From Antedon mediterranea (Eukaryota > Echinodermata > Crinoidea > Comatulida > Antedonidae), in contig NC_092672.1 in NCBI RefSeq assembly GCF_964355755.1, positions 7,068,001 to 7,132,000 of the forward strand: DNA of 64,000 nt. Direction: 5' to 3'. A program made the translations under genes and the position numbers. A model generated the notes under the pieces. That model searched no databases and was not told the origin of the DNA. It saw nothing but the letters and a program-made list of their open reading frames with translations. This document shows, piece by piece, positions 4,132 through 63,713 of the stretch. Position 1 is the stretch's first letter; every line of letters starts with the position of its first letter.

Positions 4132-4229
4132 TCTTTGTGCATACAATGCTGATACAATAGGCAAACAATGGCCTAGGGAGCTGAGATAAACAACGTCCAC
4201 TCTGTTTGGTGATCTAATACACAAGTCTG

Positions 4230-4941: not shown

Positions 4942-5011
4942 ATGGCAGCTTACCGTCACGCTATAAAGTTGATTATGCTGTTTACAACTATAACGTCAAG
5001 TGCTAGCAATG
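4942..5011 (+). CDS. Receptor copy 1, exon 1: signal peptide
   Basis: Exon 1 encodes 23 residues with a hydrophobic core (IKLIMLFTT) ending in small residues, typical of a secretory signal peptide. It ends in phase 1 at a GTTCGT donor. The start is the first ATG after a possible 5' UTR splice acceptor. Its phase joins exon 2 at 17092 to give an Asp codon that starts the PDST repeats. Confidence 0.8.
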
Positions 5012-17000: not shown

Positions 17001-17567
17001 AAGGTTATTACACACTTCATCTAAATTATAGTGAATGGAGTAATATTATAGAAAAATGTGATCTAATGCAAGGCTCTTCGGTTTATTTCAGATTCAACCT
17101 TGTATCCCGATCCAACTTTGTACCCAGATTCAACCTCGTATCCAGATACAACCTTATATCCAGTTTCAACTTCATATCCACATTCGACCTTTTATCCAGA
17201 TACAACCTCATATCAAGATTCAATCTCATATCCAGATACAACCTCATATCCAGATACAACCTCAAATCAACATTCAACATCATATCTAGATACAACCTCG
17301 TATTCAAATTCAATCTCAAAGCCAGATACAACCTTATATCCAGATACAACCTCATATCAAGATCCAATATCATATCCAGATACAACATCATATCCAGATA
17401 CAACCTCATATCCAGATACAACCTCAAATCCTCATACAACTTCATATCCAGATTCAATCTCATATCTAGATACAACTTGGTATCCAGATTCAAACTCATA
17501 TCCAGATTCACCCTGGTATCTAGATCCAAGCTCATATTCAATATTTTCTTCAGAATATTATTACTCT

Positions 17568-23600: not shown

Positions 23601-26600
23601 AACGAGTCTTGTGGTTAATCACGTGTGAAACCAAATTTTATAGAGAGTGGTTCAGTACAACATACAGTATTTGTTAAATATACATCATCACATACCTAAC
23701 ATTTTAAAGTATTTATTTGATTAATTCAAACAAATTAAATTTTAGATCAGTCTCAAACATGTTCAAACAATCAATTCAGATGTTTATCTGGCGCTTGTAT
23801 TCTAAAATCATTACAATGTGACGGAAACTTTGATTGCCCTGACAACAGCGATGAAGATGAACAATATATTCAAGGTAATATAGTAGGCCTATATCAGTAT
23901 TATTCTCGAGATATTCTCGTGTATTTCTGGTGGAATTTCTCTCGTTTTCACGACGTAGGCATCCGCGGTCTAAAGGGAATTCTTCTGCGCAGACAAAAAA
24001 GTACAGGCCGAATGAAGATAGTTACCACCGGTAAAGTACTATAGGCCAGGAATGAGTAGTTCTTTTTTCAAAACCAAAAATTAGTGAAACTAACCTGCTT
24101 GACAGCTTCTTTAGAAGAATGGCTATAGGCTATAGGCTTCGCATATTCCATATTATGTATCAATAATATTGCGGTTTTTCTTATTTTAGAGTGTTCCGAT
24201 TCGTTGGACGGCCACGGCTATCGGGGGACAAAGAACAAGACAACAAATGGAATACGTTGTATAAAATGGACAAGTAATTTCAAAGGAACTGATGCGATAT
24301 ATCCAGTAGATTACATTGGTAAAGGTATTGGGGATCACAACTTTTGTCGGAATCCAAACGGAAGACAACAGCCATGGTGTTATACAGAGGATTTTTATGA
24401 AGTTGAAGATTGTGAAATTCCATTATGTGGTGAGGAAATGAATATCAGAGTCTATTGTATGCAGTATTTGTTTCAAACAATCTCTTATGGCCAAATCAGA
24501 CAGCGTCGTATGACGAGGCGGGAAAACATTAAACATGTTTAAAGTTCTCGTGACGACCTAAAAACTGCACCTGAAGCTAGCTCAAGACGACTCGTTTCGT
24601 CGGGATTCAACTCAGACAGCACCGACGAGTCAAGACGTTGCGTTTCACTAAAACCTATTCCAAAGTTTTGGTAACAAGTTGTTATTATTTGGGTTATAAC
24701 ACTATATCATTTTTTTAGATCAAGTTTCAGATGCAGATTTAAACAATTGTCCAATCACAAGCTTCCAGTGTTCAACAGGTCATTGTATTTCCTATTCATT
24801 CCGTTGTGACCATAAACCAGACTGCCCAGATAGCTCAGATGAACAAGATTGTAGTAAGTTTATGTTCACATGACTGTTATATTGTTATTTTGGATAAAGA
24901 TTTGTGCAAAAAAAAGAAAAATAAATAATGTATACGCTTTGTACTTTGTGCATAGCGCACCGCATAGTCACTTGTTAGGCGCACTCACTGGGCCACTCAG
25001 TGCTTTAAAATGCGCATAATACATGTTTTTTTTTAATGGTAGTATTCAGGAATTGCACCGATGTCGAGTTTTCCTGTGATAATGGACGCTGTTTACAATC
25101 TTCATTGCAATGTAACATAATTAAAGACTGTTTAGATGGAACAGACGAACTAAAATGTGGTAGGCGGTTTTTTTCCTGAATAACATGACATAACATTAGC
25201 ACAACATTTTATTGTAAGGGGAGTTTACAGTTGGAGAGATTTTTTTGGATATATTGTCTTACAGTGCATTATGCCTCATGTAATGTATACAACAACAAAA
25301 GACTGATAGGTTGTAGATACAAAATGGGAAGATCTTTAATGTATGGAAAATTAGACGTTAAACTAGTCGTTGAAGGTGAAGCCTAGAACGTGCCACACTG
25401 CAACTGCAATTGTATTAAAATAATTTCGCTCGAGTAACAAAAGTGCTGTATATATCCATTTATTTTTTCCGGTGCAAGTGTCACTTAATACAGTTATCTT
25501 TACCAGGTGAATGCAGCTCAGGTTTTTTACGATGTAGTGATGGTAAATGTTTGCACCCAAAATTCAAATGTGATCGAATAAGAGATTGTCCAACAGGAAT
25601 TGATGAGCCCATGGATGAGCCAAATAATTGCCGTAAGTAGTAGCAATCAAATAGCCTAATCACTAACATTTCACATTTCATTGAGTTTAGACAGGTATTT
25701 GAAGCAAGTTTTTCTTAAGTGAACATATAAATGATGACAGTGACAAAACTAGACTAGCTTTATCATTTGGAGGCAAGTTATCGCTAATTCTTAACTTGTG
25801 TTGTCATTCCTATTATAGAATATACTGATACAAAATCGTTATGTAATAAAACAGAGATGGTATGCGAAAATGGCATTTGCATCGATCAGCGTCACCTGTG
25901 TCTATTAGACTACGATGTGTATTCAGACGACGTTATAACAGGTTGTCGAGATCGTAGTCACTTACAACATTGTGGTGAGTTGAGTTGTTTCATGTGTTGT
26001 GCAACCTTCGTATTTATTCAATATTATAATCATACAACGATCCTGTTTATTCAGGAACGATGGTACTTGACAAAAATGTATAGTTTAACTTTGTATAACA
26101 TAAAGGTTTCAATTGCTTTGTTTATCGTGCATTTTCTACTTGTCAGAAGTTATGACACGCCATATATGCCTTTTTAAAAAATTAAGTCAAAACACCTGGA
26201 CCCGAAGACTGTCATATGAAAGTACTTTTCGTGAATAGGTGCATTTTGTAGGATTGTAGATAATAAATAAATAATTTTGTTTGAAAAATCCAGTAAAGTA
26301 ATTACTCACATTCTTTAGCTTTCGCCATCTTGGCTGACGGCTTGATCACAAGTGATCCGGTCCACGGCTACTTCCTGGAAATCTGTTGATTGTTTCTAGG
26401 TGACGTCATACTTTTTCGTAGCAATGATGTGTATACGTGATCGAGAAATACAGCTCCTTCGTCGTGGTTGATTGCGTTATACCCCACTCCTCTCTTTCTG
26501 ATTTGGATTGCTTTTACTTTGTAAATTATTTGTTTTATTTTTAAAGTGTGAATTATTTAAAGTACGATTGTTTTATTATTTATTATAAACAGTTTTCATT

Positions 26601-29600
26601 GGGGACCTACATGCAACATTATAGTAACTCAGCATTTATTTATTATATTTTGATTTGAAGACCCTTACAGAAGACTCGGTTCTCGGGCAAATTGTTCCAT
26701 ATATTGTTCCACTAACACAAGAACTTATGAGATAACTCTCCCTTTTTTGCAAAAGTTTCTAACGCTTTAAATCATACTTTGTCGTGTAGCTTCATTCGAG
26801 TGTCCAGCAAACACATACAAATGTCCGAGCTCGTACTGCATAACAATCAAAAGCCGATGTGATGGGCGAGATGATTGCGAAAATGGAGAAGATGAACAGT
26901 ATTGTGAGGATTATAACTGTCCAGGATACTTCAAATGTCAAGATGCGTCAAATTGTATTTCTCAAGATCTTGTGTGTGATGGCATCAAAGACTGTCTTCG
27001 TGGGGATGATGAACTTTTTTGCGGTAAGATGTGATTCAAAATTCAAAAAATATTAATACTAAATAAATAGAGAATCAGTCATAAAATAATAACACAAAGT
27101 GTCATCCATGTGTTCTAGATTATTTGGATACGTTGATTTAGGAAAAAAAAGAAACCGTAACTAATTGATCTATTTAAGATTTATACATTGTTGATAGATG
27201 TATGATCCTGAGCTTAATTTAACCCTCGGAGAAATATAATAGTCTCCTAAGAAGTTGTTACTACAGATTTACTTAGTACTATTTAATTTTGTCTTGCTAT
27301 GATTTTATATTTTTTTTCTAATAAAACTTACATCTACCAAGAAGTAGAACGTAAATGTGCGTAAGTTCTACTTGTGTGATGTGAATTACACTTGTGTAAT
27401 TTAATTGATTTACATTTCCCTTTCTTGCCTAAAATAATAAATTGTTTAAACTACTTTTTCATTGATAACGTCTGTCATAGATATACAGTGCCCTAACGGA
27501 TGTGTCTGCCAGGACCTTTCATACAACTGTCATGGAGTAGAATGGACAGCAGAAAAAGCTGCATTAATTTCGCCAGATGTACGATACTTGTAAGTATAAT
27601 AATTTATATTTTTATATATGTATTGTTTATAAAAAGAAACATTGTTTCCTTGCACACATAAGTCCATGTATATATATGCACGCGCACACGACACACATAC
27701 TATACATATACAGTCCATACAAAATTTGTCGCAGCCAATCAGAAGATCAAAGGACTGTTAGAACTTGGTCCTATTGGCAAGACGAGCTCAACATCATTTT
27801 GTTAGATTGCCTTGATATTAAATAAGTTTTTTATTTTCAGAAATCTAAGCAATGTATCTATAGTTCCTTCAGAAGACACGGGTGAAGATCTGCTATTCTT
27901 ACATCCCAGTATTTTCAAATTTAATTTTGTTTTGTAAGTTTAATTAAATAAAAAAATACACTAAGCTTGTTTAAGTAATATTTATGTCTAGAGATGAAAA
28001 CTATGAGTAGCTGCTGTAGTAGTTATCCAGTATATTCAAGTATTTTGTTTACACTTGTAGATGTAGTATAACTATTGTGCTTTTTCATGCATTTTCTTTT
28101 TATAGAGATATCTCTGGAAACAATATCAAGAAACTAGCAGGTGAAATGTTTTATCAGTTTGACCATCTGACAACTCTGTAAGTCATCATCACAATTTAGT
28201 AAACACATTTACACAGAGTTTTTAAAATTCGTTGCATCGTCAATAGACGTAATAGGGGCCGGCCACAACGCGGCACAATTCAACAAAATAAATGCACCCG
28301 ATTCTGTGGCTGTTACTAGACTCTCTGTGGAAGACTGTCTACCAGATACCTATCTAACTGTATTAAGTACTTTTAATACATGATATCTCTGACGTCATTA
28401 GGTTCCTATCTAGAGACAATGTATAACGTTATAATATGTATTCATCAAATGCACCAGAAAGCAGAATAGCAGGTTTATCGTAAATAAAACGAAATTATAA
28501 ACGTATATTTACCTATTCTAGATACATGCAAGGCAACAATATAGCATCATTGGAAGGTGATGTCTTTCAGGATTTAAAACAATTGAAATATCTGTAAGTA
28601 AACCATGTTAAACCTATATAGAGTAGGCTAGTTTTAGTTTTTTAGGTAAACGTTTGTGTTTATTTTTTCTAAAATTAATTTAAAGCTCATTAAACATGTT
28701 TAGTTAAATTTCTTTATACCGCTACAATAATAGTAGACTACATAATACTTTTACATAAAAAAGACTATGGAAACAGCAGAAAATTGCTGTACATTTTGGA
28801 ACTAATTGTTTATTTGTTTCATTAACAGTAATATCCATGGTAATGGATTGGAATCCATCGGCAGAGGAACATTTTTCGGATTATCAAAACTCGAGTATTT
28901 GTAAGTATAAAGTATTTTAGATGTACGTCATGGGTGACATTGTATGGGTTAATGGAGAGAACACCTTACAATTTAAATACAAAATAACAGAAAACGATAC
29001 ACAGCAATTTAATTCCTAAGTAAAAGTGTATATGTATAACAGAATGGTTCTGTGGTAACATTATTTATGTGTGCTCTATTTTAGAAATATGTCTGGAAAT
29101 AACATTGGTAACGTTGATAAATTGATATTCAAGGACTTGATGTCTCTTAAAACATTGTGAGTAATGTATATATAATCTTGTACTTTAGAAAATGGAAGTT
29201 ACAGTACAATAAATGTATGTCAATATTGTGTCAGAGTAGACTAGATATAGAGAGATGAAAGAGAAATACTCGTCTACAAAGTATATACAGTAGCTCTTGC
29301 TCTTATAGCGGTGTTGTGTCCATGTAGGAACCGAGCTTCATGAAGTAAATCTTTCATTTCAGAATATCTGATGATTATTCATTTTGCTGTTTGTTGGAAG
29401 ATGTTGGTTTTAACGACGTTGACTGTACGCCAGATGCAGACGTGTTTTCATCATGTGACAATCTTATGCAGAATGTGTACCTTAGAGCTTTCTTATGGTT
29501 ATTTGGACTGAGTGCACTTCTAGGAAACAGTTTTGTAATCTTATGGCGATGGATAAATTGGCCTGCAAAGAAAAGTCCATCTTACACACAATCGTTTCTA

Positions 29601-34901: not shown

Positions 34902-36223
34902 TTTGGCCTAAAAAAGAAGGATTGTGAATCATATGTTTTTCCGGTATTTTCGCCTAACTTTGTTAATGTAATAATTAATCTGTGTATTTTGTGAATTATT
35001 TCTGGGTTTTTTTAAAAATTAGATTGACGTTAGAAATCGTTTACAGCCTAACATAGTAACGACAACAACCAAGTTATAAATATTGTAAATGTAAATGTAA
35101 TTAGTCGATGCTGCTTTATTTTTCGCATATTGTTTAATGTCGACGACGAAGATAGATTAAACGAGTCATGGTACTATTTGTAGATTGAATTGTTAATGTA
35201 TAATTTAATTGTTGTTATTGTTAAACACTAATCGAATTTTTTTTTTTTAATGTGACAATCATTTACGTAGGCGTAAAAGTGTATTATAGATACATAACTT
35301 GTATTTTTAAGGGAGGAGTTAGTTCACTTGTTATATTACGTACAGCCTGCAGCATTGTCTGCAGACGTAAAGATCGCTTCGATTCTTATGCATATTTATT
35401 AATGTCTTTATATAATACGTTTACAATAGTACAAAACAAATATGTATATTAGTTTAATTATTCAATCCTTTAGAAACAATATTGTTGCTCTATATAAATA
35501 GTAGACAATGACACTGAATTTAAAGTCTCGTACAATATAGCTAGTGTATTTTGTTGTAATAAACCGACACCGATTGTTTTGTAGCCGCACCATACATTAG
35601 AAACCGACACCGATTGTTTTGTAGCCGCACCATACATTAGAAAGCGTGTATAATATAATTATCCTAGTTGTATTTACCCAGCTTCTGGGAATACTTATTA
35701 TAACTACTGCACGGTAAAGTACATCTCATGAATTATCGTATGTTAGGCTGAGGTGGTCTCGATGAACAAATTTGACTACGTCGTATGTTTTCAATTATTT
35801 CGTGGAATGGTTTGTGGCATAACATACATCGACGTTTACATGTTTTTCCGTGAATACATAAGTAATTCAAATCTCTGTACAATGCCGGTACAATAGAGAA
35901 TAAAGTTGGAATTTCCCTTTTCATTGTGTTGCTGTGTTGTTTCTAACAACGTCACTATAAAAACTCAAATCAAATCCGGGCCTAGAACCAGCAGAAAACA
36001 AGAAGAAAAGTAATATATGCCACGCGTAATGTTATTTGATTTATATTGGCTTAACTGGCAATTGAAATAGACTAAGCAAGATTTCTCTGGTTGGTAACGT
36101 TGCTACCAAGGTAAGCGTTTTCGATTGTTAACCCCGAGACCGAGTTTGCTTTAACCGACTAAACCTGTTCCACGATAAAAGCCTCATCGTCAAAAATCTC
36201 ATATTCCAAATTAATTTTTTATT
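34902..36223. other. Non-coding stretch with a 40-bp direct repeat
   Basis: No gene recognised. The only structure is the exact 40-bp tandem repeat at 35561-35640. Confidence 0.5.
35561..35640. repeat. Exact 40-bp direct repeat, two units
   Basis: Two identical units beginning aaaccgacaccgattg. Both duplication copies have exactly two units (see 63051-63130). Confidence 0.9.
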
Positions 36224-43990: not shown

Positions 43991-44060
43991 ATGGCAGCTT
44001 ACCGTCACGCTATAAAGTTGATTATGCTGTTTACAACTATAACCTCAAGTGCTAGCAATG
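43991..44060 (+). CDS. Receptor copy 2, exon 1: signal peptide
   Basis: Same 23-residue leader as copy 1 (ATG at 43991), phase 1 donor GTTCGT. Intron 1 is only 642 bp here and contains the old RTE fragment but none of the later insertions. Confidence 0.8.
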
Positions 44061-45124
44061 GTTCGTGTATTATTTCTATACCTGTTTCAAAAGAGATCCT
44101 ATACATCATCATCATCAATTAGCATAATTGTGGAACCTTGATGGGTTATTTGTAATATACCTTGCTTACTACGTTAATTTTTATAATTCAGTGAAAGTTA
44201 GACAGATTTATGTGATAGACCTAAGTTCTTCGTCTTCTTCTTCTTTTCTTCTTCATGATTTAGCAGTCCACTACAGGGCATCCCTCCTCCAAATCTCTCC
44301 ATTTACTTTTCTCTTTTGCTATTCTGAACCAGTTGTTTTCTCATGTCATGTCATGTCATGTCATGTCATCTCCATCTCCCTTTGAGTTTGCTTCTTTTGC
44401 TGTTCGCTATCCTTGTCTGCCAAACTGTATAGTCCTGCTTGTCCACATGTTTTTGCTTGAAGTAGATCTCTGTTTATTATATCTTTCCTTTTGCATGGTA
44501 CCTTGTCCATTATTGTTATGCCAAGTATTTTCCGTTCTATTGCATACTGGGTTGATCTTAACTTATCCTTCTTCTCAGTAAGTCTCAAAGTTGAAAAGAA
44601 GAGAAAGAAGAAGATTATTACACGCTTCATCTAAATTATAGTGAAATGGAGTAATATTATAGAAAAATGTGATCTAATGCAAGGCTCTTCGGTTTATTTC
44701 AGATTCAACCTTATATCCCGATCCAACTTTGTACCCAGATTCAACCTCGTATCCAGATACAACCTTATATCCAGTTTCAACTTCATATCCACATTCGAAC
44801 TTATATCCAGATACAACCTCATATCAAGATTCAATCTCATATCCAGATACAACCTCATATCCAGATACAACCTCGTATCCAGATACAACCTTATATCCAG
44901 ATACAACATCATATCCAGATTCAATATCATATCCAGATACAACATCATATCCAGATACAACCTCATATCCAGATACAACCTCAAATCCTCATTCAACTTC
45001 ATATCCAGATTCAATCTCATATCTAGATACAACTTGGTATCCAGATTCAAACTCATATCCAGATTCACCCTGGTATCTAGATCCAAGCTCATATTCAATA
45101 TTTTCTTCAGAATATTATTACTCT

Positions 45125-45157
<33 letters not shown>

Positions 45158-48100
45158 GAATATTTGTATTGTGAGTTTAACGAATATTATTGATTTTTTT
45201 TGTTCAGCTATTTGTTTAATAAGTATCAACAAATATGATTACAAGCAAATATACCTGTCGGTCCTGGGATGGGTTTCAAATAATATAGTTTTACATTCAT
45301 TTTAGAAAAAATGTATAGATTATTTAGACCAGTTGTCATAATCACATTGTAATCTATTTTCCAGATAACAATGAAGTTATAACTCTTGTTGGTGGCAATG
45401 TAAAACGAGAAGGTCGACTTGAACTGAAAGGTGATATTTCTGGTACTGTTTGTTCTGTTGGCTGGACCGAAGCTGATGCTTCATTAGTCTGTAAGAGTCT
45501 TGGTTATGAAGGTGTTGACGAATATTTGGTGTATAGCTTTGGAGAAGGGAATGGGAGAATTTGGTCGAATATTAATGGTTGTATTGAATATCCTACGTGT
45601 AATCCAATGGATTCATCGGAAGATCCACAATGCACTCATGCAAATGATGTCGGGATAGTATGTTCACCTTGTAAGTTAAAAGGGAGCTACGATTTGTTAT
45701 GACCAACCTAGGCCAGGTCAACTGATGTGTCGGCGGTCGTCGCCTGAACACAGAAACCATCAAATCTGTGTCGAGGTGGAGATCGCGGACACACGTCCAA
45801 ATAATTTCCTCATGGTCGCCGGTCGTTTAAAATCGAAAGCTTCTAATATTAAATTGTAATTTCAAAAAATCATGCATGTACCACTTTGAAGATCAACTTG
45901 TTTACCCCTTTTTTAAAGTGACAATTCGACTTGTTGGTGGTGATAATCTGAATGAAGGGCGTGTAGAGTTCAATTATTTTGGTGAGTTTTCAACAATAAG
46001 GGATCTACATATCAGCGAAGCCGACGTCATTTGTCGTTCGCTTCACTTTCCTTCTGCTGAGTTCTCGGATTGCTGTGGAATATATGGTACTGCCTTTGAC
46101 CTGCCTTCTTATCAAGTCGAATGTAAAGGAAATGAGAAAGAATTATCTGACTGTTCGATATATACTACCTATGATATTGACCAACAATCTGGGATTAGAT
46201 GTTCAACTGGTAAGAATATGCAATGCAATATTGTTTGCCAAAAGGTATCTGATGAGTTTAGAATTTCTTTTAAATATATTAACATTTGTACTAAATTTAA
46301 CCTGCACTGATTATGTCAATGATAAATGTATGACAATTATTATACATTAAATAGTATTTTCTTAAAACAATTTAGTGTACTTAGTCTTATTTCACAATAT
46401 ATTATTATAACACCAGCTCCTCAATTTTAGATGTTTTCTTTTAAAGAAACATGTACTAGGCCTACATCTTGTAAATGTATTAAAGGGCGGAGAGAAGATT
46501 CTGGGTGGGTATTTTAAATATTAATTTATCTTTTAATAGTGGTTATGATATTTCCTCAGATGGCGTAAGATTAACTGGACAGTTTGAATCAGATGGACCA
46601 CTTGAAATCTTTACAAGCTCTGCTTGGCATAAAGTATGTTCGGTTGATTTTAACATTAAAGTTGGTGAAGTAATCTGCAGTCAACTCAACTTTGATGGTG
46701 TTTTAAATGTCACTGACATTGACAGTGACAACGGCACAACAACCATACGAGAAATTAATTGCACAGGAATAGAGAGTAGATTTGAAGAATGCTCTTTCAA
46801 TATTGTGCCTGAACAAATGTGCACAAGTTTTGTGAAGCTGTCATGCATTGGAAGTAAGCAAATGCAGTACTTAAATATACATTATTAAGCAGGGACAAAT
46901 TCTTGATATACAAACATTAACTTTCCCTAAGTTGTTATATATTATCTTTTTATATTAATCCACACATCGACGTTTCGAATTTGTCTGGACAATTTCGAGC
47001 TCAGGTATTATAAGTATGAAACGCCATGTGTGCCAAAATATTTATGTTTAACCAATATTATATTCAGCCTATAACCAAGACATTTGACATTAGAACGTCT
47101 TCTTTGGGACACTCTATTTAGATAAACACCTTTACAGAAAACATCCTTTTCAGAGGAAACCTCTTTTCATGGACATTTAGGCCTCCGGGTAAAACGAGGG
47201 GCAAACATTGTATATTAATACTGTTGACAGACTCTCAGTTGAATCTCTAAAGTTTCCCTTTAATATGTGTCCATTGTTGTAAACATAAGATAATCTTCAT
47301 CCAGCTACGAAATTTATAGTAAAAAATGACTGACCTTTAATCAACAAAATATTGTTTTCTTGACAGAAAAAATGTTTTAATAATGACATAATGCAGCTAA
47401 TAATCGTAAGCCATTTGTCTATAATAATTTGTATTTATAATATTTACAGGTGGATCAAGATTTGCTGATGGGTATACTAGGAACTCGGGGTATGCGCAGG
47501 CATACATTAATAGCGAATGGAATTATATTTGCGACAGTGATAGAAGAGTTACTGAATTTATCTGCTTACAAGAGCAATCAACTGGTGTTCACTTAGTACG
47601 AAACCAATACCCATTCTACATTTCTGACGAATACGCTGATTGTGACATCACACCCGAAAACAGTCTACAGTGTAGTCAAACCTTGGTTGATTGTTTTCCT
47701 TATCTTATTTATACGGAATGCTCAACGGGTATGTAATTTTTGTTTTATATGCCATCCCTGAGTTCAAATCCTTCATCTAATTTAAGCCTAATTAACCCTT
47801 CATAAAATGCATGTTGAATTCAATAAATGGTAGGTCTATAGGTCTAAATCTGTGTTAAGTGTTAATTAATCGCTTCTAAAAGAGTTGTTTCTGACGGTAC
47901 TTAATGCTTGGATGAATATTTTGCAATAACTGCTTTAAAATCAGAACGTCCATCCATACTATTTGTCATGTCATAAGCATTATTACTATGATGTCTGTCA
48001 GTTATAAGCCTCTGATGACAAATGCAAATAACGATCGACAATCATCTAAATTCATCCATTCTTTATCTACAACACATCTTCTTCACAATAGTATAACATA

Positions 48101-51100
48101 CACTGGTCTCCAGTACCATGAACCCCGAATACCAATTCCACGTTCTTGGTATTTATGCCGTTTGTTCATTACGTCATTCTATTAACTAGTCAAGCGTAGC
48201 GGGGAGTAACTAGTGCCATCATTTTGTTTTAAAGATGAGCTTATGAGATAATACTGTACCGCAATTTATATTTAGATGTTGCACGAATCAAGGGAGGAGG
48301 TCATCGTGGATTTGTTCAAATCTTCAAAGATGGCAAATGGAATTATATTTGCAGTGAAAACTGGAATGTTCAGACTACTGAGCTTGCTTGTAAAGAACTC
48401 AACTTTCGCTCCACTTCTACAGTGACTGGTGTTGGTGTAAACACAACCGCCGTAGTACCCGATGCTCAGATCATTATGTGTGATGGAAGTGAATCGAGTT
48501 TGCTGAATTGTCAATTTGATACCAACATGCAATGTAAACGTCATGCTGTACAAGTCACGTGTTCTGACGGTGATAATTTGTGCTTTTTTGCTACACTACT
48601 ATTGTCCTATTATTGTATTATTTTTGCATAAATTAATTAAATTTGTCTAGACCTATCTATACTTACTTTTTCACTGCCACATTCGTGATTTGATGATAGG
48701 AGTATTGGGTATTTAGCAAGAATAGGATTACCTGTAGTAACTAGTGCTGATAAGTAGCGACATCTTTCTTTTATCTTACTCTACAGTTGGTATACGTCTT
48801 AGAGGATCGCCAGTAAAGCATGCTGGTCGTGTGGAAATATACAACAACAACCAGTGGTGGACGGTTTGCGATGATTATTGGGATACCAATGACGCGAACG
48901 TGGCATGCATTATGGCGGGTTATTCTGGAGCTACCAGAGGGTATCGCGAGGCAGCGTTTGGTGAAGGGGTTGGTCCTATTTTGCGCTATGATTTTTTTTG
49001 TGACGGTGATGAAGACGACTTATTTGATTGCCCATTTGGTACACATTCCGATGGATTCTGTTCACATTACGAAGATGCAGGAGTGATTTGTTCTACAGGT
49101 ACGTTTCAGATCTTTGTATATGTTTACCAAAATAATTCAAAGGCATAACACCATAAAGGAGTATAACTGGGTTTACATGCAAAATTCGCACATTTTTATA
49201 CTTTTTATACAATAAAAAAAACACTACAAGACCTTGAGAGTTAGTGTTCAGATTCAAATTCATACACATTAATTAGGTTATTTGACAATAACTGGGGCCC
49301 GCACTAGAAGCAATAGCTTGTATCATGAGGGCCCCTACAAAATAAATATAAATATGCAAAATAAATAAAAAGAAACATCCCGTCTTAATGTCTGCCCTTT
49401 CATGTTATCGTCGCGTAATTGATGTTATTGTGCCGTGATTGTAATTTGTATGATTAATTAAAATGAATGTCTTGTTCCTTGTAACAGATATAATTCGTCT
49501 TTCTGATGGAAGCCCATCTGCCGGTCGGGTTGAACTATTTATCAATGGCCAATGGGGAACGATTTGTGACGATAACTGGGACATAAATGATGCCATTGTT
49601 ATTTGCCGACAATTAGGGTTTGACAGAGCTGCTAACGCATACGACATGGCTAGATTTGGTCCTGGCAAAGGTCCAATACATTTTGATGAAGTTCAGTGTG
49701 CGGGAAGCGAAACCGATATCTTACTGTGTAACACTAAAAGTATTCATGATTGTGAACATTCTGAAGACGCAGCGGTGTCCTGTGTTTCTGGTAAATATTG
49801 AACAAAATATATAAGTTTGAGTTTTTTTTTCACAGTAGATTTTCCGTCAGATGTTACACACAGTTGTTTATCTTTTTCATCTAGTCAGACGAATATGTGG
49901 TGAATATTAATTTACAACATTTTGTTGTTCCATATTTTTTTTTTGGACCAATTAGTTTGTGGCGAGTTAAGCTGTGGCCGAGTTTACTTGGGGCCGAGTT
50001 ATGTATGGTAGATAAGATAGATGATTAAATATCAAATACCTATCATCAATACGTTAGGCAATAAGGAGTATCTAAACATTAAATTGAAGCTCCCTTTATA
50101 AATCAACATTATTTTCATTGTAAGCTGTACTCTTTTCCTATTTAGACTCATTTGTGACTCCATCATGGTTGAAACCATTTAACAGTATTCAGACAAACGG
50201 TAAGTTAACATAAGATCAGTAATAACAAAGTAAATGTTATATTAATGAACAATGGACAGAGAATAAGAAGTATTATTTTCATCTGCCATATTCTATAATA
50301 AAAAAGAAACGAAAATGAATAAGAATGCAAGCAAAATCATAATTTATCGAATAAGATAGTAAGATTGAAATGAAAAGATAATATCAAGAGTAATGAAACA
50401 TGAAAGAGAGAAAATTATTACATTTGATTTTTAATTTAACAAAATAAAAATAACCTATACTAGCAGTAATGATAGCTTTGATAGAAGCTCTAAGATGATA
50501 GACGATACAATTGTTATTTCTAAGAGCTATAGTGTATAAACGGAGTATTTAATCGAACGTTCCGATCTTTATTTGAGATCTTTATCAACTCACTGCTTGT
50601 TGAATCCAATAGATTCAGGATCAGTTAAAAAATAAAATTATTGTTAATTTAAATGAAGCGAATAAGCAAATCACCCGTCGTATCAATTTTTGTTTGCAGG
50701 TTGTAAAGACTATTGGTTTCAAAACGATAATTCTTGTCTAACAGTTATACATACAGAGCATAGTACTACGCTTTCCGAATTGTCTTGTCCAGAAGGATCG
50801 TCAGTTCTTTCAGTAGACACAGAAGTAGGCATGTTAGGAGAATATCTTCGAATAATTTATTACTATTATGAAGAAATCACTCTTAAACTATTTCTTTGGC
50901 AAGATGGTAAATCAAAAACTTGCACTTTTTTTAATCGTACTGGTGATAATGGAGACACATGGGATGTGATTAGTGTACCGGCAATACAGTGTAACGACGT
51001 CTATGCTTATGTTTGTAAAATGGATATTAAAGGTACAGTATTTGTAATGTCTCTATGCCATTGTACAATTGTTCTGTATTTAATCATCTACTCAATGATA

Positions 51101-54100
51101 ACATTAATGAACGAGTCTTGTGGTTAATCACGTGTGAAACCAAATTTTATAGAGAGTGGTTCAGTACAACATACAGTATTTGTTAAATATACATCATCAC
51201 ATACCTAACATTTTAAAGTATTTATTTGATTAATTCAAACAAATTAAATTTTAGATCAATCTCAAACATGTTCAAACAATCAATTCAGATGTTTATCTGG
51301 CGCTTGTATTCTAAAATCATTACAATGTGACGGAAACTTTGATTGCCCTGACAACAGCGATGAAGATGAACAATGTATTCAAGGTAATATAGTAGGCCTA
51401 TATCAGTATTATTCTCGAGATATTCTCGTGTATTTCTGGTGGAATTTCTCTCGTTTTCACGACGTAGGCATCCGCGGTCTAAAGGGAATTCTTCTGCGCA
51501 GACAAAAAAGTACAGGCCGAATGAAGATAGTTACCACCGGTAAAGTACTATAGGCCAGGAATGAGTAGTTCTTTTTTCAAAACCAAAAATTAGTGAAACT
51601 AACCTGCTTGACAGCTTCTTTAGAAGAATGGCTATAGGCTATAGGCTTCGCATATTCCATATTATGTATCAATAATATTGCGGTTTTTCTTATTTTAGAG
51701 TGTTCCGATTCGTTGGACGGCCACGACTATCGGGGGACAAAGAACAAGACAACAAATGGAATACGTTGTATAAAATGGACAAGTAATTTTAAAGGAACTG
51801 ATGCGATATATCCAGTAGATTACATTGGTAAAGGTATTGGGGATCACAACTTTTGTCGGAATCCAAACGGAAGACAACAGCCATGGTGTTATACAGAGGA
51901 TTTTTATGAAGTTGAAGATTGTGAAATTCCATTATGTGGTGAGGAAATGAATATCAGAGTCTATTGTATGCAGTATTTGTTTCAAACAATCTCTTATGGC
52001 CAAATCAGACAGCGTCGTATGACGAGGCGGGAAAACATTAAACATGTTTAAAGTTCTCGTGACGACCTAAAAACTGCACCTGAAGCTAGCTCAAGACGAC
52101 TCGTTTCGTCGGGATTCAACTCAGACAGCACCGACGAGTCAAGACGTTGCGTTTCACTAAAACCTATTCCAAAGTTTTGGTAACAAGTTGTTATTATTTG
52201 GGTTATAACACTATATCATTTTTTTAGATCAAGTTTCAGATGCAGATTTAAACAATTGTCCAATCACAAGCTTCCAGTGTTCAACAGGTCATTGTATTTC
52301 CTATTCATTCCGTTGTGACCATAAACCAGACTGCCCAGATAGCTCAGATGAACAAGATTGTAGTAAGTTTATGTTCACATGACTGTTATATTGTTATTTT
52401 GGATAAAGATTTGTGCAAAAAAAAGAAAAATAAATAATGTATACGCTTTGTACTTTGTGCATAGCGCACCGCATAGTCACTTGTTAGGCGCACTCACTGG
52501 GCCACTCAGTGCTTTAAAATGCGCATAATACATGTTTTTTTTTAATGGTAGTATTCAGGAATTGCACCGATGTCGAGTTTTCCTGTGATAATGGACGCTG
52601 TTTACAATCTTCATTGCAATGTAACATAATTAAAGACTGTTTAGATGGAACAGACGAACTAAAATGTGGTAGGCGGTTTTTTTCCTGAATAACATGACAT
52701 AACATTAGCACAACATTTTATTGTAAGGGGAGTTTACAGTTGGAGAGATTTTTTTGGATATATTGTCTTACAGTGCATTATGCCTCATGTAATGTATACA
52801 ACAACAAAAGACTGATAGGTTGTAGATACAAAATGGGAAGATCTTTAATGTATGGAAAATTAGACGTTAAACTAGTCGTTGAAGGTGAAGCCTAGAACGT
52901 GCCACACTGCAACTGCAATTGTATTAAAATAATTTCGCTCGAGTAACAAAAGTGCTGTATATATCCATTTATTTTTTCCGGTGCAAGTGTCACTTAATAC
53001 AGTTATCTTTACCAGGTGAATGCAGCTCAGGTTTTTTACGATGTAGTGATGGTAAATGTTTGCACCCAAAATTCAAATGTGATCGAATAAGAGATTGTCC
53101 AACAGGAATTGATGAGCCCATGGATGAGCCAAATAATTGCCGTAAGTAGTAGCAATCAAATAGCCTAATCACTAACATTTCACATTTCATTGAGTTTAGA
53201 CAGGTATTTGAAGCAAGTTTTTCTTAAGTGAACATATAAATGATGACAGTGACAAAACTAGACTAGCTTTATCATTTGGAGGCAAGTTATCGCTAATTCT
53301 TGTGTTGTCTTTCCTATTATAGAATATACTGATACAAAATCGTTATGTAATAAAACAGAGATGGTATGCGAAAATGGCATTTGCATCGATCAGCGTCACC
53401 TGTGTCTATTAGACTACGATGTGTATTCAGACGACGTTATAACAGGTTGTCGAGATCGTAGTCACTTACAACATTGTGGTGAGTTGAGTTGTTTCATGTG
53501 TTGTGCAACCTTCGTATTTATTCAATATTATAATCATACAACGATCCTGTTTATTCAGGAACGATGGTACTTGACAAAAATGTATAGTTTAACTTTGTAT
53601 AACATAAAGGTTTCAATTGCTTTGTTTATCGTGCATTTTCTACTTGTCAGAAGTTATGACACGCCATATATGCCTTTTTAAAAAATTAAGTCAAAACACC
53701 TGGACCCGAAGACTGTCATATGAAAGTACTTTTCGTGAATAGGTGCATTTTGTAGGATTGTAGATAATAAATAAATAATTTTGTTTGAAAAATCCAGTAA
53801 AGTAATTACTCACATTCTTTAGCTTTCGCCATCTTGGCTGACGGCTTGATCACAAGTGATCCGGTCCACGGCTACTTCCTGGAAATCTGTTGATTGTTTC
53901 TAGGTGACGTCATACTTTTTCGTAGCAATGATGTGTATACGTGATCGAGAAATACAGCTCCTTCGTCGTGGTTGATTGCGTTATACCCCACTCCCGTCTT
54001 TCTGATTTGGATTGCTTTTACTTTGTAAATTATTTGTTTTATTTTTAAAGTGTGAATTATTTAAAGTACGATTGTTTTATTATTTATTATAAACAGTTTT

Positions 54101-57100
54101 CATTGGGGACCTACATGCAACATTATAGTAACTCAGCATTTATTTATTATATTTTGATTTGAAGACCCTTACAGAAGACTCGGTTCTCGGGCAAATTGTT
54201 CCATATATTGTTCCACTAACACAAGAACTTATGAGATAACTCTCCCTTTTTTGCAAAAGTTTCTAACGCTTTAAATCATACTTTGTCGTGTAGCTTCATT
54301 CGAGTGTCCAGCAAACACATACAAATGTCCGAGCTCGTACTGCATAACAATCAAAAGCCGATGTGATGGGCGAGATGATTGCGAAAATGGAGAAGATGAA
54401 CAGTATTGTGAGGATTATAACTGTCCAGGATACTTCAAATGTCAAGATGCGTCAAATTGTATTTCTCAAGATCTTGTGTGTGATGGCATCAAAGACTGTC
54501 TTCGTGGGGATGATGAACTTTTTTGCGGTAAGATGTGATTCAAAATTCAAAAAATATTAATACTAAATAAATAGAGAATCAGTCATAAAATAATAACACA
54601 AAGTGTCATCCATGTGTTCTAGATTATTTGGATACGTTGATTTAGGAAAAAAAAGAAACCGTAACTAATTGATCTATTTAAGATTTATACATTGTTGATA
54701 GATGTATGATCCTGAGCTTAATTTAACCCTCGGAGAAATATAATAGTCTCCTAAGAAGTTGTTACTACAGATTTACTTAGTACTATTTAATTTTGTCTTG
54801 CTATGATTTTATATTTTTTTTCTAATAAAACTTACATCTACCAAGAAGTAGAACGTAAATGTGCGTAAGTTCTACTTGTGTGATGTGAATTACACTTGTG
54901 TAATTTAATTGATTTACATTTCCCTTTCTTGCCTAAAATAATAAATTGTTTAAACTACTTTTTCATTGATAACGTCTGTCATAGATATACAGTGCCCTAA
55001 CGGATGTGTCTGCCAGGACCTTTCATACAACTGTCATGGAGTAGAATGGACAGCAGAAAAAGCTGCATTAATTTCGCCAGATGTACGATACTTGTAAGTA
55101 TAATAATTTATATTTTTATATATGTATTGTTTATAAAAAGAAACATTGTTTCCTTGCACACATAAGTCCATGTATATATATGCACGCGCACACGACACAC
55201 ATACTATACATATACAGTCCATACAAAATTTGTCACAGCCAATCAGAAGATCAAAGGACTGTTAGAACTTGGTCCTATTGGCAAGACGAGCTCAACATCA
55301 TTTTGTTAGATTGCCTTGATATTAAATAAGTTTTTTATTTTCAGAAATCTAAGCAATGTATCTATAGTTCCTTCAGAAGACACGGGTGAAGATCTGCTAT
55401 TCTTACATCCCAGTATTTTCAAATTTAATTTTGTTTTGTAAGTTTAATTAAATAAAAAAATACACTAAGCTTGTTTAAGTAATATTTATGTCTAGAGATG
55501 AAAACTATGAGTAGCTGCTGTAGTAGTTATCCAGTATATTCAAGTATTTTGTTTACACTTGTAGATGTAGTATAACTATTGTGCTTTTTCATGCATTTTC
55601 TTTTTATAGAGATATCTCTGGAAACAATATCAAGAAACTAGCAGGTGAAATGTTTTATCAGTTTGACCATCTGACAACTCTGTAAGTCATCATCACAATT
55701 TAGTAAACACATTTACACAGAGTTTTTAAAATTCGTTGCATCGTCAATAGACGTAATAGGGGCCGGCCACAACGCGGCACAATTCAACAAAATAAATGCA
55801 CCCGATTCTGTGGCTGTTACTAGACTCTCTGTGGAAGACTGTCTACCAGATACCTATCTAACTGTATTAAGTACTTTTAATACATGATATCTCTGACGTC
55901 ATTAGGTTCCTATCTAGAGACAATGTATAACGTTATAATATGTATTCATCAAATGCACCAGAAAGCAGAATAGCAGGTTTATCGTAAATAAAACGAAATT
56001 ATAAACGTATATTTACCTATTCTAGATACATGCAAGGCAACAATATAGCATCATTGGAAGGTGATGTCTTTCAGGATTTAAAACAATTGAAATATCTGTA
56101 AGTAAACCATGTTAAACCTATATAGAGTAGGCTAGTTTTAGTTTTTTAGGTAAACGTTTGTGTTTATTTTTTCTAAAATTAATTTAAAGCTCATTAAACA
56201 TGTTTAGTTAAATTTCTTTATACCGCTACAATAATAGTAGACTACATAATACTTTTACATAAAAAAGACTATGGAAACAGCAGAAAATTGCTGTACATTT
56301 TGGAACTAATTGTTTATTTGTTTCATTAACAGTAATATCCATGGTAATGGATTGGAATCCATCGGCAGAGGAACATTTTTCGGATTATCAAAACTCGAGT
56401 ATTTGTAAGTATAAAGTATTTTAGATGTACGTCATGGGTGACATTGTATGGGTTAATGGAGAGAACACCTTACAATTTAAATACAAAATAACAGAAAACG
56501 ATACACAGCAATTTAATTCCTAAGTAAAAGTGTATATGTATAACAGAATGGTTCTGTGGTAACATTATTTATGTGTGCTCTATTTTAGAAATATGTCTGG
56601 AAATAACATTGGTAACGTTGATAAATTGATATTCAAGGACTTGATGTCTCTTAAAACATTGTGAGTAATGTATATATAATCTTGTACTTTGGAAAATGGA
56701 AGTTACAGTACAATAAATGTATGTCAATATTGTGTCAGAGTAGACTAGATATAGAGAGATGAAAGAGAAATACTCGTCTACAAAGTATATACAGTAGCTC
56801 TTGCTCTTATAGCGGTGTTGTGTCCATGTAGGAACCGAGCTTCATGAAGTAAATCTTTCATTTCAGAATATCTGATGATTATTCATTTTGCTGTTTGTTG
56901 GAAGATGTTGGTTTTAACGACGTTGACTGTACGCCAGATGCAGACGTGTTTTCATCATGTGACAATCTTATGCAGAATGTGTACCTTAGAGCTTTCTTAT
57001 GGTTATTTGGACTGAGTGCACTTCTAGGAAACAGTTTTGTAATCTTATGGCGATGGATAAATTGGCCTGCAAAGAAAAGTCCATCTTACACACAATCGTT

Positions 57101-59210
57101 TCTAATTACTAATCTTGCAGTTGCCGATATGCTTATGGGGTTGTATATGTTGATCATTGCCAGTGCCGATTCCTACTATCGGGAAGATTACGTCACACAT
57201 GATAGCGAATGGAAGGCCAGTCGAATATGTACGCTTGCAGGAATCTTAGCCTTTCTATCCAGTGAATCGTCTGTGTACACTCTAACCGTCATTAGCTGCG
57301 ACAGGTTTTTGCACATTGCATTTCCATTTCGCCGTTTCCATCTTACACAAGAAACAGTACAATTTGCAGTGGCTGTCGGATGGTTTCTGACCCTCGTCGC
57401 GAGTATTCTGCCAGCATTACCAATCCCGTACTTTAACAATGAGTATTACGGTGTCACCAGCGTGTGTCTTGCATTGCCATTGACGTCGGAAAAAGTGAGA
57501 GGTTGGGAATATACCACTGCGATTTTTATTGGTTTTAATTCTTTGTGCTTCTTGTTAATTTTTGTTTGTTATTCAGGTGTGTTCATTTTAATAAAGATAT
57601 CCAGTAGTAAAGTAAATCAAGCAGGACACATGAATTCTGACAAAAATAAGCACATTGCAATTGCTATACGAATGGCTGTTATTGTCGCTACCGACTTCTG
57701 CTGCTGGGTACCAATCATAGTAATGGGTATTTTATCACTGACAACATCTGTTAACATACCCGCCACGGTATATGCCTGGGCTGCAGTCTTCATTTTGCCA
57801 ATAAATTCAGCAATTAACCCATACTTATATACAATAGCATCTTTAAAGAAACTTCAAAGGCAACTAAAACCTTCTAAACATGTATCGGAAAGTATGCCAT
57901 CTACGGAGAGAACAAATGTGAAAATTGGTTTGTAAAGAAAAATTATCTATTTCTTTATGTAATTAGGATGATTAATCTGTGACTACAGAGATTATTAAAA
58001 AAAATGTGTTTTATTCTATATAAATAGTTGTATCTAAATTTAAACGAATATTTGTTTTGGGTAGCCCTCTCAGTAATAATAATAAACCCTGTTTTTCCAA
58101 GGAGCCCTACGATACTTATTTTATAATTGATTGTTACAATTTTTGTCCAAGGAATTATTATGTATGTCCCAGAAAAGTAATGTCATCCGTCACGACGTCA
58201 CATTGTCTCTCTCCACCTAGTTACAGTAAGAACAAGTCATTATTATAGTCATGCTTTTAACTCCAGTTTTTGTCATTGTTTACTCAGAAGGTGTAAACAT
58301 CCCACGAAATCAAAAAGAGCAATCTACAGTTGAGAAAATAGAAGCTATGTTATCAAATGGAACAGATAGACATGGGAAAGAACTTGATGCAGACGTACGT
58401 AAACACCTTTCAATGGCGTTGAGATTTGCTAAGCAGCAACAAGCTGGTATTGTACAAGTAAGAACGTTTATTTATATTCTTATGCAAGTACACATAAAAA
58501 AAATAGAAATATTTCTGAATAAAATTACAATGCGACGGGTAGGCCTGTCAGTAGCTGGATCTCAATGTAGATTCAAATAAAATATGCAAAAATATAAATC
58601 TGAGTTTTGCTAAACGTTATAATCATTCGTCAGTGCAAGTATATTACATAAACTAATGTGTTGTGAGCAAGTTGCTTATCTTATTATATTACAATAACGT
58701 CATTAGATGAAGACGACACACTTTTTCAGCATTAAATGGCAGTTCCAAAATAATATCGTCCGAACAATATCATTGTCTCTTTCATTAGTTAATGTTAAAA
58801 ATGTTTTATTCTGAACAAATATGTTTGTACAATTTTTTGGTTGGATATGTCATTTTTAATTTACAAATACTTTATAAAAATGTTTTCATGTAGTAAATTA
58901 AGTTCAGTTATATTAGATAATGCAAGTCGTTCCTCTGTTGTATCTAAAGGAACAAATGATATGTCGTATAAATGACAATAAAGATGTATTTATTGTTCTG
59001 TTTGGTTTCTTGCAGGTTGAGGTTGAGGATTGTGTGGAATTCGAAGAAAGCACACAAGAAGAATCTGAAGACAATACACAAAATCAATCTCAAGACAAAA
59101 CACAAGAACGAAGCGAATACTGTATAGGAGTGTCTAATCCTGCCTACGATAACGAATCATACGTCACTAGAAGTCTCGCCTATGAAGACGACACATTTTT
59201 TCAGCATTAA
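43991..59210 (+). CDS. SRCR/CTLD/LDLa/kringle/LRR G-protein-coupled receptor, copy 2 (intact, 2018 aa)
   Basis: This model has 27 exons; all junctions use GT-AG sites in compatible phase, and the summed coding length is 6057 bases with a single stop. Domains by residue: signal peptide 1-21; YPDTTS stalk and poly-Tyr 24-179; SRCR 1-7 180-872; linker 873-890; C-type-lectin-like 891-1001; LDLa 1 1002-1044; kringle 1045-1124; LDLa 2-7 1125-1380; LRR cap and repeats 1381-1543; C-cap and 7TM about 1544-1870; cytoplasmic tail to 2018. The LDLa-LRR-7TM half matches LGR type C receptors (relaxin RXFP1/2, snail GRL101), which act at the plasma membrane. The N-terminal SRCR, lectin-like and kringle modules are not part of those families as I know them. 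The ligand and G protein are unknown. Confidence 0.88.
44250..44632 (-). mobile_element. RTE-like LINE fragment in intron 1 of receptor copy 2
   Basis: Counterpart of 16645-17022. It encodes [17 protein letters not shown] on the minus strand, with the tcatg microsatellite inside. Confidence 0.6.
44703..45170 (+). CDS. Receptor copy 2, exon 2: YPDTTS-repeat stalk ending in poly-Tyr
   Basis: 156 codons of the 18-bp YPDTTS unit array and a Tyr run, phase 1-1. It is three units shorter than copy 1, with several unit-level substitutions, as expected of a minisatellite that changes length by slippage or unequal exchange. Confidence 0.82.
45365..49790 (+). CDS. Receptor copy 2, exons 3-9: seven SRCR modules
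   Basis: Exons 45365-45670, 45919-46209, 46560-46853, 47450-47728, 48276-48569, 48787-49098 and 49488-49790, phase 1-1, each the same length as in copy 1. Changes from copy 1 in modules 1-3 include A to S, T to R, H to Y, S to R, P to H, A to D and E to K. Module 6 has only a silent change. Confidence 0.85.
50146..51032 (+). CDS. Receptor copy 2, exons 10-11: linker and C-type-lectin-like domain
   Basis: Exon 10 (50146-50199) differs from copy 1 at three residues (S to F, L to Q, K to N). Exon 11 (50700-51032) is the same lectin-like domain with the same protein sequence. Confidence 0.72.
51255..51383 (+). CDS. Receptor copy 2, exon 12: LDLa module 1, complete
   Basis: All six cysteines are present, ending DEDEQC (TGT at 51374-51376). 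This is the ancestral state for the C-to-Y change in copy 1. Confidence 0.9.
51699..51938 (+). CDS. Receptor copy 2, exon 13: kringle domain
   Basis: Complete six-cysteine kringle. It differs from copy 1 at one residue near the start (HDYRG against HGYRG). Confidence 0.88.
52228..54527 (+). CDS. Receptor copy 2, exons 14-18: LDLa modules 2-7
   Basis: Exons 52228-52362, 52552-52668, 53016-53141, 53323-53478 and 54294-54527, phase 1-1. The protein sequence is the same as copy 1 in all visible positions. Confidence 0.9.
54985..56660 (+). CDS. Receptor copy 2, exons 19-24: LRR cap and leucine-rich repeats
   Basis: Exons 54985-55093, 55345-55437, 55610-55681, 56026-56097, 56333-56404 and 56589-56660. 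Same repeats and phases as copy 1. Confidence 0.9.
56867..57927 (+). CDS. Receptor copy 2, exon 25: LRR C-cap and intact seven-helix domain
   Basis: The whole 7TM is on one exon, as in many LGRs. Seen: the C-cap [16 protein letters not shown] (TM1); LAVADM (TM2); [13 protein letters not shown] (TM3 end and loop 2, a DRF form of DRY, residues 1688-1691); [16 protein letters not shown] (TM4); [15 protein letters not shown] (TM6, the TDxxCW-P form seen in LGRs); [11 protein letters not shown] (TM7, NPxxY). The donor is GTTTGT here, against GTATGT in copy 1. If it is not used, the protein ends two residues later at TAA. Confidence 0.92.
58288..59210 (+). CDS. Receptor copy 2, exons 26-27: cytoplasmic tail
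   Basis: Exons 58288-58457 and 59016-59210, reached in phase 1 and phase 0. They encode the same tail as copy 1 with [10 protein letters not shown] near the C-terminus, stop at 59208-59210. Confidence 0.8.
58707..58809 (+). repeat. Duplicated last-exon fragment in intron 26 (copy 2)
   Basis: Counterpart of 31216-31318, matching 59182-59284. Confidence 0.75.
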
Positions 59211-63050: not shown

Positions 63051-63130
63051 AAACCGACACCGATTGTTTTGTAGCCGCACCATACATTAGAAACCGACAC
63101 CGATTGTTTTGTAGCCGCACCATACATTAG
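63051..63130. repeat. Exact 40-bp direct repeat, two units (copy 2)
   Basis: Same two units as 35561-35640. Confidence 0.9.
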
Positions 63131-63713
63131 AAAGCGTGTATAATATAATTATCCTAGTTGTATTTACCCAGCTTCTGGGAATACTTATTATAACTACTGC
63201 ACGGTAAAGTACATCTCATGAATTATCGTATGTTAGGCTGAGGTGGTCTCGATGAACAAATTTGACTACGTCGTATGTTTTCAATTATTTCGTGGAATGG
63301 TTTGTGGCATAACATACATCGACGTTTACATGTTTTTCCGTGAATACATAAGTAATTCAAATCTCTGTACAATGCCGGTACAATAGAGAATAAAGTTGGA
63401 ATTTCCCTTTTCATTGTGTTGCTGTGTTGTTTCTAACAACGTCACTATAAAAACTCAAATCAAATCCGGGCCTAGAACCAGCAGAAAACAAGAAGAAAAG
63501 TAATATATGCCACGCGTAATGTTATTTGATTTATATTGGCTTAACTGGCAATTGAAATAGACTAAGCAAGATTTCTCTGGTTGGTAACGTTGCTACCAAG
63601 GTAAGCGTTTTCGATTGTTAACCCCGAGACCGAGTTTGCTTTAACCGACTAAACCTGTTCCACGATAAAAGCCTCATCGTCAAAAATCTCATATTCCAAA
63701 TTAATTTTTTATT

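Follow-up and report, generated by a model that had tools for sequence, protein, structure and literature searches.

A predicted crinoid receptor with SRCR, CTLD-like, kringle and LDLa modules on an LGR type C core, and its paralogues with the same layout

The window analysed here is a stretch of 64,000 nucleotides from the crinoid Antedon mediterranea (C3:7068001-7132000, where C3 is the contig of the window, NC_092672.1; the genome comprises 354 Mb in 18 contigs). The gene at 43991-59210 (+), called B below, probably encodes one large multi-exon cell-surface receptor of the leucine-rich repeat-containing G protein-coupled receptor (LGR) type C, in which an extracellular arm, built of modules typical of immune and blood-clotting proteins, would capture a ligand and a hormone-receptor-type core would switch a G protein; we give this reading a probability of about 0.6. 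Six other loci (A, D4, D5, P1, P2 and P3) have matches to SRCR, kringle and the seven-transmembrane (7TM) exon arranged in this order along one strand, which with B makes seven.

The model of B consists of 26 exons, with the start codon in exon 1 and the stop codon ending at 59210, and its product is 1850 residues long. All 25 introns are of the GT-AG type and the phases agree at every junction (1-1 at the N-terminal modules, 2-2 at the LRRs), with a few weak donors (for example GTTCGT after exon 1 and GTGATA after exon 6). A preliminary description of this locus is thereby confirmed in its exon joins without a phase break, and also in the modules that it named (seven SRCR, kringle, seven LDLa, LRR and 7TM), the exons of which are present, in order and on one strand, by Pfam, profiles and inspection by eye. 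Its length of 2018 residues is not reproduced. The difference is probably accounted for by an open reading frame (ORF) in intron 1, at 44703-45170, which has phase-compatible splice sites and would add 156 residues. An 18-base minisatellite, open in several frames, lies in this intron at 44700-45094 (in copy A at 17089-17537), and the ORF was omitted from the model because it is a simple repeat and found no match in the 2.5-3.1 kb covered upstream of exon 2 in P1 and P2. Two ends are possible for B: exon 24 with its own stop at 57935, or a splice at 57891 to exons 25 and 26. The spliced tail, which carries an NPAY motif, is preferred because the similarity of P2 to B stops at 57890, exon 25 has weak counterparts in P1 and P2, and the frames of exons 25-26 are open in copies A, D4 and D5. 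The exons of B, followed by copy A, are given below with window positions, strand and evidence.

43991-44060, +, exon 1: start codon and probable signal peptide, donor phase 1 (by eye; the same exon lies upstream of copy A at 4942)
45365-45670, +, exon 2: SRCR 1 (model, Pfam, profiles, paralogues)
45919-46209, +, exon 3: SRCR 2 (model, Pfam, profiles, paralogues)
46560-46853, +, exon 4: SRCR 3 (model, Pfam, profiles, paralogues)
47450-47728, +, exon 5: degenerate SRCR-like module 4 (model; positional homologue in P1 and P2)
48276-48569, +, exon 6: SRCR 5 (model, Pfam, profiles, paralogues)
48787-49098, +, exon 7: SRCR 6 (model, Pfam, genome SRCR search)
49488-49790, +, exon 8: SRCR 7 (model, Pfam, genome SRCR search)
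50146-50199, +, exon 9: linker of 18 residues (identical to P1 at 10 of the 17 residues compared; no counterpart found in P2)
50700-51032, +, exon 10: CTLD-like module with six cysteines (model, alignment of copies, weak CTLD profile match)
51255-51383, +, exon 11: LDLa 1 (model, Pfam, profiles)
51699-51938, +, exon 12: kringle (model, Pfam, genome kringle search)
52228-52362, +, exon 13: LDLa 2 (model, profiles)
52552-52668, +, exon 14: LDLa 3 (model, profiles)
53016-53141, +, exon 15: LDLa 4 (model, profiles)
53323-53478, +, exon 16: LDLa 5, with atypical spacing (model, profiles)
54294-54527, +, exon 17: LDLa 6 and 7 in a single exon, two exons in P1, P2 and P3 (model, profiles, paralogues)
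54985-55093, +, exon 18: cysteine-rich, resembles an LRR N-terminal cap (model, by eye)
55345-55437, +, exon 19: irregular LRR-like stretch (model, by eye)
55610-55681, +, exon 20: LRR, 72 nt, phase 2-2 (model, Pfam, profiles)
56026-56097, +, exon 21: LRR, 72 nt, phase 2-2 (model, Pfam, profiles)
56333-56404, +, exon 22: LRR, 72 nt, phase 2-2 (model, Pfam, profiles)
56589-56660, +, exon 23: LRR, 72 nt, phase 2-2 (model, Pfam, profiles)
56867-57891, +, exon 24: hinge and 7TM, with the usual switch motifs DRF, CWVP and NPYLY (model, Pfam, PDB matches)
58288-58457, +, exon 25: cytoplasmic tail (weak counterparts, 15 of 56 residues in P1 and 12 of 56 in P2)
59016-59210, +, exon 26: end of the tail with NPAY, stop (model)
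4942-31719, +, copy A: tandem copy, ~98% identical to B (exon 1 at 4942, exons 2-26 at 17803-31719)

A Pfam search of the whole model, of the kind suggested in the preliminary description, returned SRCR (E-value 7.5e-98, 6 stretches), Ldl_recept_a (4.7e-40, 6 stretches), 7tm_1 (1.4e-27), LRR_8 (1.4e-19) and Kringle (5.4e-16). Counted by eye exon by exon, there are seven SRCR positions, of which that in exon 5 is degenerate, and seven LDLa modules; profiles derived from the copies, B itself included, locate the seven LDLa and four LRRs of 72 bases. The ectodomain contains 104 cysteines. In a Kyte-Doolittle scan every segment above 1.6 lies within residues 1430-1689, inside the 7TM, and none before residue 1430; a signal peptide in exon 1 is called by eye as probable.

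The 7TM exon alone, compared with PDB entries (thus only with receptors of solved structure), is nearest to RXFP1 (170 bits), followed by TSHR (135) and LGR4 (68). For the stretch from LDLa 7 to the 7TM the scores are 249 bits for RXFP1 (7tmw) and 137 for both TSHR and LGR4, the main part of the RXFP1 alignment running across the LRR, hinge and 7TM and a smaller part across the LDLa and LRR. The LRR block stands immediately before the hinge and 7TM (exons 18-24), with the seven LDLa N-terminal of the LRRs, which is a feature of LGR type C (PMC11863921). The 7TM nearest to RXFP1 and the LDLa placed before the LRRs thus give B the features of LGR type C, and judged by its sequence the core is of this type (RXFP/GRL101-like), as had been proposed; by analogy, the several LDLa modules may point to the C2 (GRL101) subgroup. 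The Pfam scan of the whole model found neither GPS/GAIN nor the secretin-type 7tm_2, the only 7TM family being 7tm_1, and B accordingly lacks the GPS/GAIN and secretin-type 7TM of an Adhesion G protein-coupled receptor (GPCR). Nor does it resemble a secreted SRCR protein, without a membrane anchor, as on the one-gene reading the model runs on to the 7TM. NCBIfam returned nothing for the 7TM.

The six further loci emerged from genome searches in which, for SRCR, 150 of 408 candidates were scored. In copy A the 7TM exon (window 29363-30401) carries a 14-base tandem duplication, which shifts the frame just after DRF, and the others of exons 2-26 are open. D4 and D5 are near copies of B with exons 2-26 open in both; in D5 a second exon-26-like stretch runs into a stop. 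P1 is inverted and lies ~4 Mb away, and its 7TM is 73% identical to that of B; the figure for P2 is 70%, and P3 is also a locus of the 70% class. The assembled exons 2-24 comprise 23 exons and 1603 codons in P1 and 23 exons and 1702 codons in P2, both without a stop. Only exons with AG, GT and the phase of B were sought in this projection, and these features are not independent tests; independent support comes from the kept order, the open frames and a similarity of 37-73% by block. In the 16 kb examined at P3, 20 of the 24 exons of P2 were found, none with a stop and 18 with AG and GT exactly at the ungapped place (exceptions are exons 15 and 24); exons 2-5 were not found in this piece and presumably lie outside it. 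LDLa 6 and 7 are split by an intron in P1, P2 and P3 and unsplit in B, A, D4 and D5, which implies either the loss of an intron in the B group or its gain at the other loci.

Several side observations concern the duplicated region. A partial duplicate, from C3:7050547 onward, starts inside exon 14 and includes, at 7054365, a 7TM exon that is open; the matches listed between it and the 7TM of D4 include neither SRCR nor kringle. Two 40-base double repeats of the same consensus, at window positions 35561-35643 and 63051-63133, are ~27.5 kb apart, which equals the period of the 3' ends of A and B, and could be landmarks of the duplicated unit. The first intron of copy A contains an element resembling a long interspersed nuclear element (5217-12128, -), with endonuclease- and reverse-transcriptase-like ORFs recognized by eye, and a 517-residue ORF at 2689-4242 (-) with zinc-finger-like cysteine patterns is perhaps derived from a mobile element.

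One gene is favoured because the module order is kept in dispersed paralogues and because the introns at the module junctions are short. The other possibility is that two adjacent genes, for a secreted SRCR/CTLD protein and for an LDLa-LRR-GPCR, have been wrongly joined through phase-compatible exons: the joins are predicted from genomic sequence, an exon of phase 1 joins any other of phase 1, and related LDLa-LRR 7TM genes exist that have no SRCR match in the 20 kb examined (on C4, and on C11 save for an SRCR-like scrap, E 0.0098). This possibility is opposed by the same order at seven loci, one of them inverted and 4 Mb away, and by introns from exon 7 to exon 13 of 79-675 bases in six copies (P3 not included), with the exception of 1700 bases between exons 11 and 12 of P2; in P3 they measure ~950 bases between exons 8 and 10 and ~810 between exons 11 and 12. 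The intron between exons 10 and 11 is 213-240 bases long in the five of six copies that have exon 10, and P1 retains the small linker exon 9, which there follows the last SRCR after an intron of 105 bases. Two separate genes are, on this sequence evidence, unlikely, and we give the wrongly joined pair only a small chance; a chance origin of the layout is very unlikely, since the order recurs in diverged paralogues. The single gene claimed in the preliminary description gains from the order at seven loci and the short junction introns, but the gene is not alone, as the seven loci share its layout. An artefact of assembly or duplication, or a cluster of decaying pseudogenes, is hardly credible. 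It would fit the 98% identity of A and B, the frameshifted 7TM exon of A, the partial duplicate beginning within exon 14 and the exon-26-like stretch of D5 that runs into a stop; it does not fit the frames of B, D4 and D5, open over exons 2-24, the equally stop-free P1 and P2, which are far diverged, or the ratios of nonsynonymous to synonymous change (dN/dS) below 1.

These ratios were calculated by the Nei-Gojobori method for A, B, D4 and D5, in five of their six pairwise comparisons, where the counts are small and values near 0.8 say little. They amount to 0.41-0.54 for the SRCRs, 0.52-0.80 for exons 9-10, 0.23-0.33 for the LDLa-kringle block, 0.27-0.66 for the LRRs, 0.06-0.16 for the 7TM (without A) and 0.37-0.63 for the tail, and are below 1 in all blocks where they are defined (A and B show no change in the LRRs and the tail). 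The constraint on the 7TM is clear from these sequences. The identity between B and P2 is 0.56 in the SRCRs, 0.37 in exon 10, 0.64 in the LDLa-kringle block, 0.46 in the LRRs and 0.70 in the 7TM; between B and P1 it is 0.49, 0.63, 0.52 and 0.73 for the same blocks, with exon 10 absent. The whole ectodomain, including the LRRs, thus drifts and the 7TM alone is held. Copy A is a mosaic, with an SRCR half like D5 and an LRR part and tail like B: in exons 2-8 it is closer to D5 (synonymous divergence, dS, 0.0045) than to B (0.0204), and in the LRRs it is the same as B (dS 0) but has diverged from D5 (dS 0.106). Such a mosaic would result from unequal exchange or gene conversion among the copies.

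Two modules of the arm are less well defined. Exon 5 of B alone has no Pfam match; its counterpart in P2 matches SRCR at E 0.014, below the cut-off, the counterpart in P1 has no Pfam match, and the predicted structure (predicted local distance difference test, pLDDT, 45) is too poor for use. Exon 10 has six cysteines at the same positions in all five aligned copies, in an order which we take to be that of the long-form CTLD. Proof that it is a C-type lectin failed: exon 10 of B has no Pfam match, the best PDB match of the five-copy profile is a weak one to CLEC9A (E 0.018), and the predicted structure, of low confidence (pLDDT 60), found no Foldseek match at E<=0.001. Among the matches listed in a search of the genome for Lectin_C (150 of 529 candidates scored), none lies at the seven loci, and the six matches to the exon-10 type itself (6 of 6 candidates scored) are confined to the C3 cluster. 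Of the lectin module described earlier, what stands is a CTLD-like exon with six cysteines; its identity as a lectin does not follow from the weak profile and fold matches, and the exon is absent from P1.

Several points weigh against the receptor as drawn here. The model of B is a prediction from genomic sequence, and by sequence and structure prediction exon 10 is an unproven lectin. Exon 10 is missing from P1, where exons 9 and 11 are 373 bases apart; in the exon-by-exon projection exon 9 was not found in P2, and exon 26 was not reliably found in P1 or P2. Exon 1 was located only in A and B; a crude scan offers a candidate for P2 but nothing within the 3.1 kb upstream of P1. Five of the seven helices exceed the Kyte-Doolittle threshold; the signal peptide and two helices remain below it. 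The LRRs, though part of the core, are as diverged as the SRCRs (0.52 vs 0.49 between B and P1, 0.46 vs 0.56 between B and P2). Finally, SRCR, kringle and LDLa modules also serve in development, coagulation and adhesion.

B belongs to a large family. The 7TM exon has at least 104 matches in the genome (113 of 246 candidates scored), 69 of them with 228 bits or more and an identity of 41-100% (copy A counting as two), many in tandem groups. The kringle has 76 matches (88 of 88 candidates scored), seven of which, by eye, are at the seven loci; one precedes a further family member, on C1, by ~24 kb, and two precede a member on C7 by 74-85 kb, too far to judge. The upstream DNA of four other members was scanned with profiles of only six kinds (for SRCR, LDLa, kringle, LRR, the exon-10 type and the 7TM), which ordinary lectin or CUB exons would escape. 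The C4 member reads LDLa-LRR-7TM and the C11 member LDLa-LRR, its 7TM lying beyond the piece, with one SRCR-like scrap (see above). A GRL101-like member at C1:20195001-20225000 has another arrangement of the arm, where one strand carries a kringle, four LDLa, a lectin-type exon, two SRCR, a CUB-like exon (no Pfam match), a CUB, a second lectin-type exon, seven LDLa, LRR and 7TM. Candidate splice sites of phase 1 are available for the exons of the modules, and of phase 2 for the LRRs and the acceptor of the 7TM, with a weak donor at the second lectin-type exon; Pfam gives 2e-21 and 5e-22 for SRCR, 2e-20 for CUB, and 3e-4 and 3e-3 for Lectin_C, both partial and below the curated cut-off. If the C1 locus is one gene, modules would have been shuffled on the LGR type C core at least twice in this genome. 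On C7, three SRCR exons lie ~28 kb before a related 7TM, with a reverse-transcriptase-like ORF (by eye) between them. Related 7TM exons form a tandem group at C8:24384677-24487359, and each of the eight listed has an in-frame TAA in the matched stretch.

RXFP1, with one LDLa, about ten LRRs and no known SRCR or kringle, differs from B in these modules. Its LDLa, LRR, hinge and 7TM (PDB 7tmw) align with those of B. GRL101 (LGR type C2), first found in Lymnaea, likewise has several LDLa followed by LRRs and a 7TM, which in B is rhodopsin-class and close to RXFP1; the Lymnaea receptor has 12 LDLa and 6 LRRs (PMC8286064), whereas B has 7 LDLa and 4-5 LRRs, with seven SRCR, a CTLD-like module and a kringle in addition. 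The schistosome-resistance region SudRes2 of Biomphalaria encodes GRL101-like receptors with an N-terminal C-type lectin (PMC12297450). They resemble B in their tandem cluster and in an LRR-LDL-7TM core with an added recognition module, but this module is a C-type lectin, SRCR and kringle being unmentioned in the main text of that paper, whereas the arm of B has seven SRCR and a kringle and its lectin call is weak. Amphioxus Adhesion GPCRs carry the same kinds of module (kringle, SRCR, C-type lectin, LDLa; PMC2246102) on a GPCR with its own 7TM type; B, in contrast, combines 7tm_1 with LRRs. Rhodopsin-class GPCRs with LRR and LDLa are also listed from choanoflagellates (PMC12716839). Searches of an open-access library found SRCR or kringle nowhere reported on a rhodopsin GPCR of the LRR type; cases could exist in database annotations and subscription papers. 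The claim that no family has such modules is therefore narrowed, as a lectin on GRL101 and kringle, SRCR and lectin on Adhesion GPCRs are published, and it stands, within that library, for seven SRCR and a kringle on an LGR core. Judged from the predicted protein, a recognition module on a GRL101-type core was already known, and the seven SRCR and kringle on that core would be what is new.

The ligand of RXFP1 is presented by the LDLa and LRR parts of the receptor, which also act on the 7TM, and kringles bind proteins. By analogy, the arm of B (SRCR x7, CTLD-like, LDLa, kringle, LDLa x6) may capture an extracellular ligand, such as a microbial surface, a modified host protein or matrix. Binding would shift the membrane-proximal LDLa-LRR-hinge, which would act on the 7TM as in RXFP1 and switch the G protein; the SRCR-kringle arm would thus be a capture step added ahead of RXFP1-like activation, and the NPAY of the tail could serve adaptor-led uptake. 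Among the paralogues the 7TM remains close to constant, while the ectodomain (SRCR, CTLD-like exon and LRRs) drifts, and modules can be gained or lost in it.

As to the ligand, the precedent in Biomphalaria may place immune or general pattern recognition slightly ahead of the two alternatives, chemosensing and a hormone receptor whose arm is adhesive. B could be an ordinary receptor for an insulin/relaxin peptide (GRL101-type), with an SRCR/kringle arm for adhesion or localisation and not for microbe recognition; this is unlikely but has real weight, given that its LRR-hinge-7TM is nearest to RXFP1 and that an insulin-like growth factor (IGF) has been proposed as ligand of GRL101 (PMC8286064). 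A fixed hormone would, however, not require a tandem array of several receptors that share this arm, nor a further member carrying other shuffled modules. Also unlikely, to a comparable degree, is a chemosensory family for environmental macromolecules, with tandem expansion and a variable ectodomain, which is partly compatible with the pattern-recognition receptor so that the odds overlap. The many tandem 7TM matches (69 of 104 at 228 bits or more) and the expression of GRL101 in starfish sensory organs (PMC6267866) argue for it, and the link of invertebrate SRCR proteins mainly to microbe responses (PMC7308585) argues against it. More generally, we tentatively suggest, as an idea that may well prove wrong, that in this animal LGR type C receptors serve as GPCR-type pattern-recognition receptors, with a fixed 7TM like that of the relaxin receptor, an exchangeable SRCR/CTLD/kringle/CUB/LDLa arm, and tandem arrays in which arms are renewed by duplication and exchange.

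The recognition of patterns and signalling through G proteins normally take place in separate steps. With an SRCR arm on a 7TM core, a single molecule could combine the two, by which recognition of a microbial or other extracellular ligand, as the preliminary description proposed, would be coupled to G-protein signalling. This would extend the report of lectin modules on GRL101-like receptors of the snail (PMC12297450) with a different and larger set of modules, and enough is known of the relaxin-receptor core for the idea to be tested directly.

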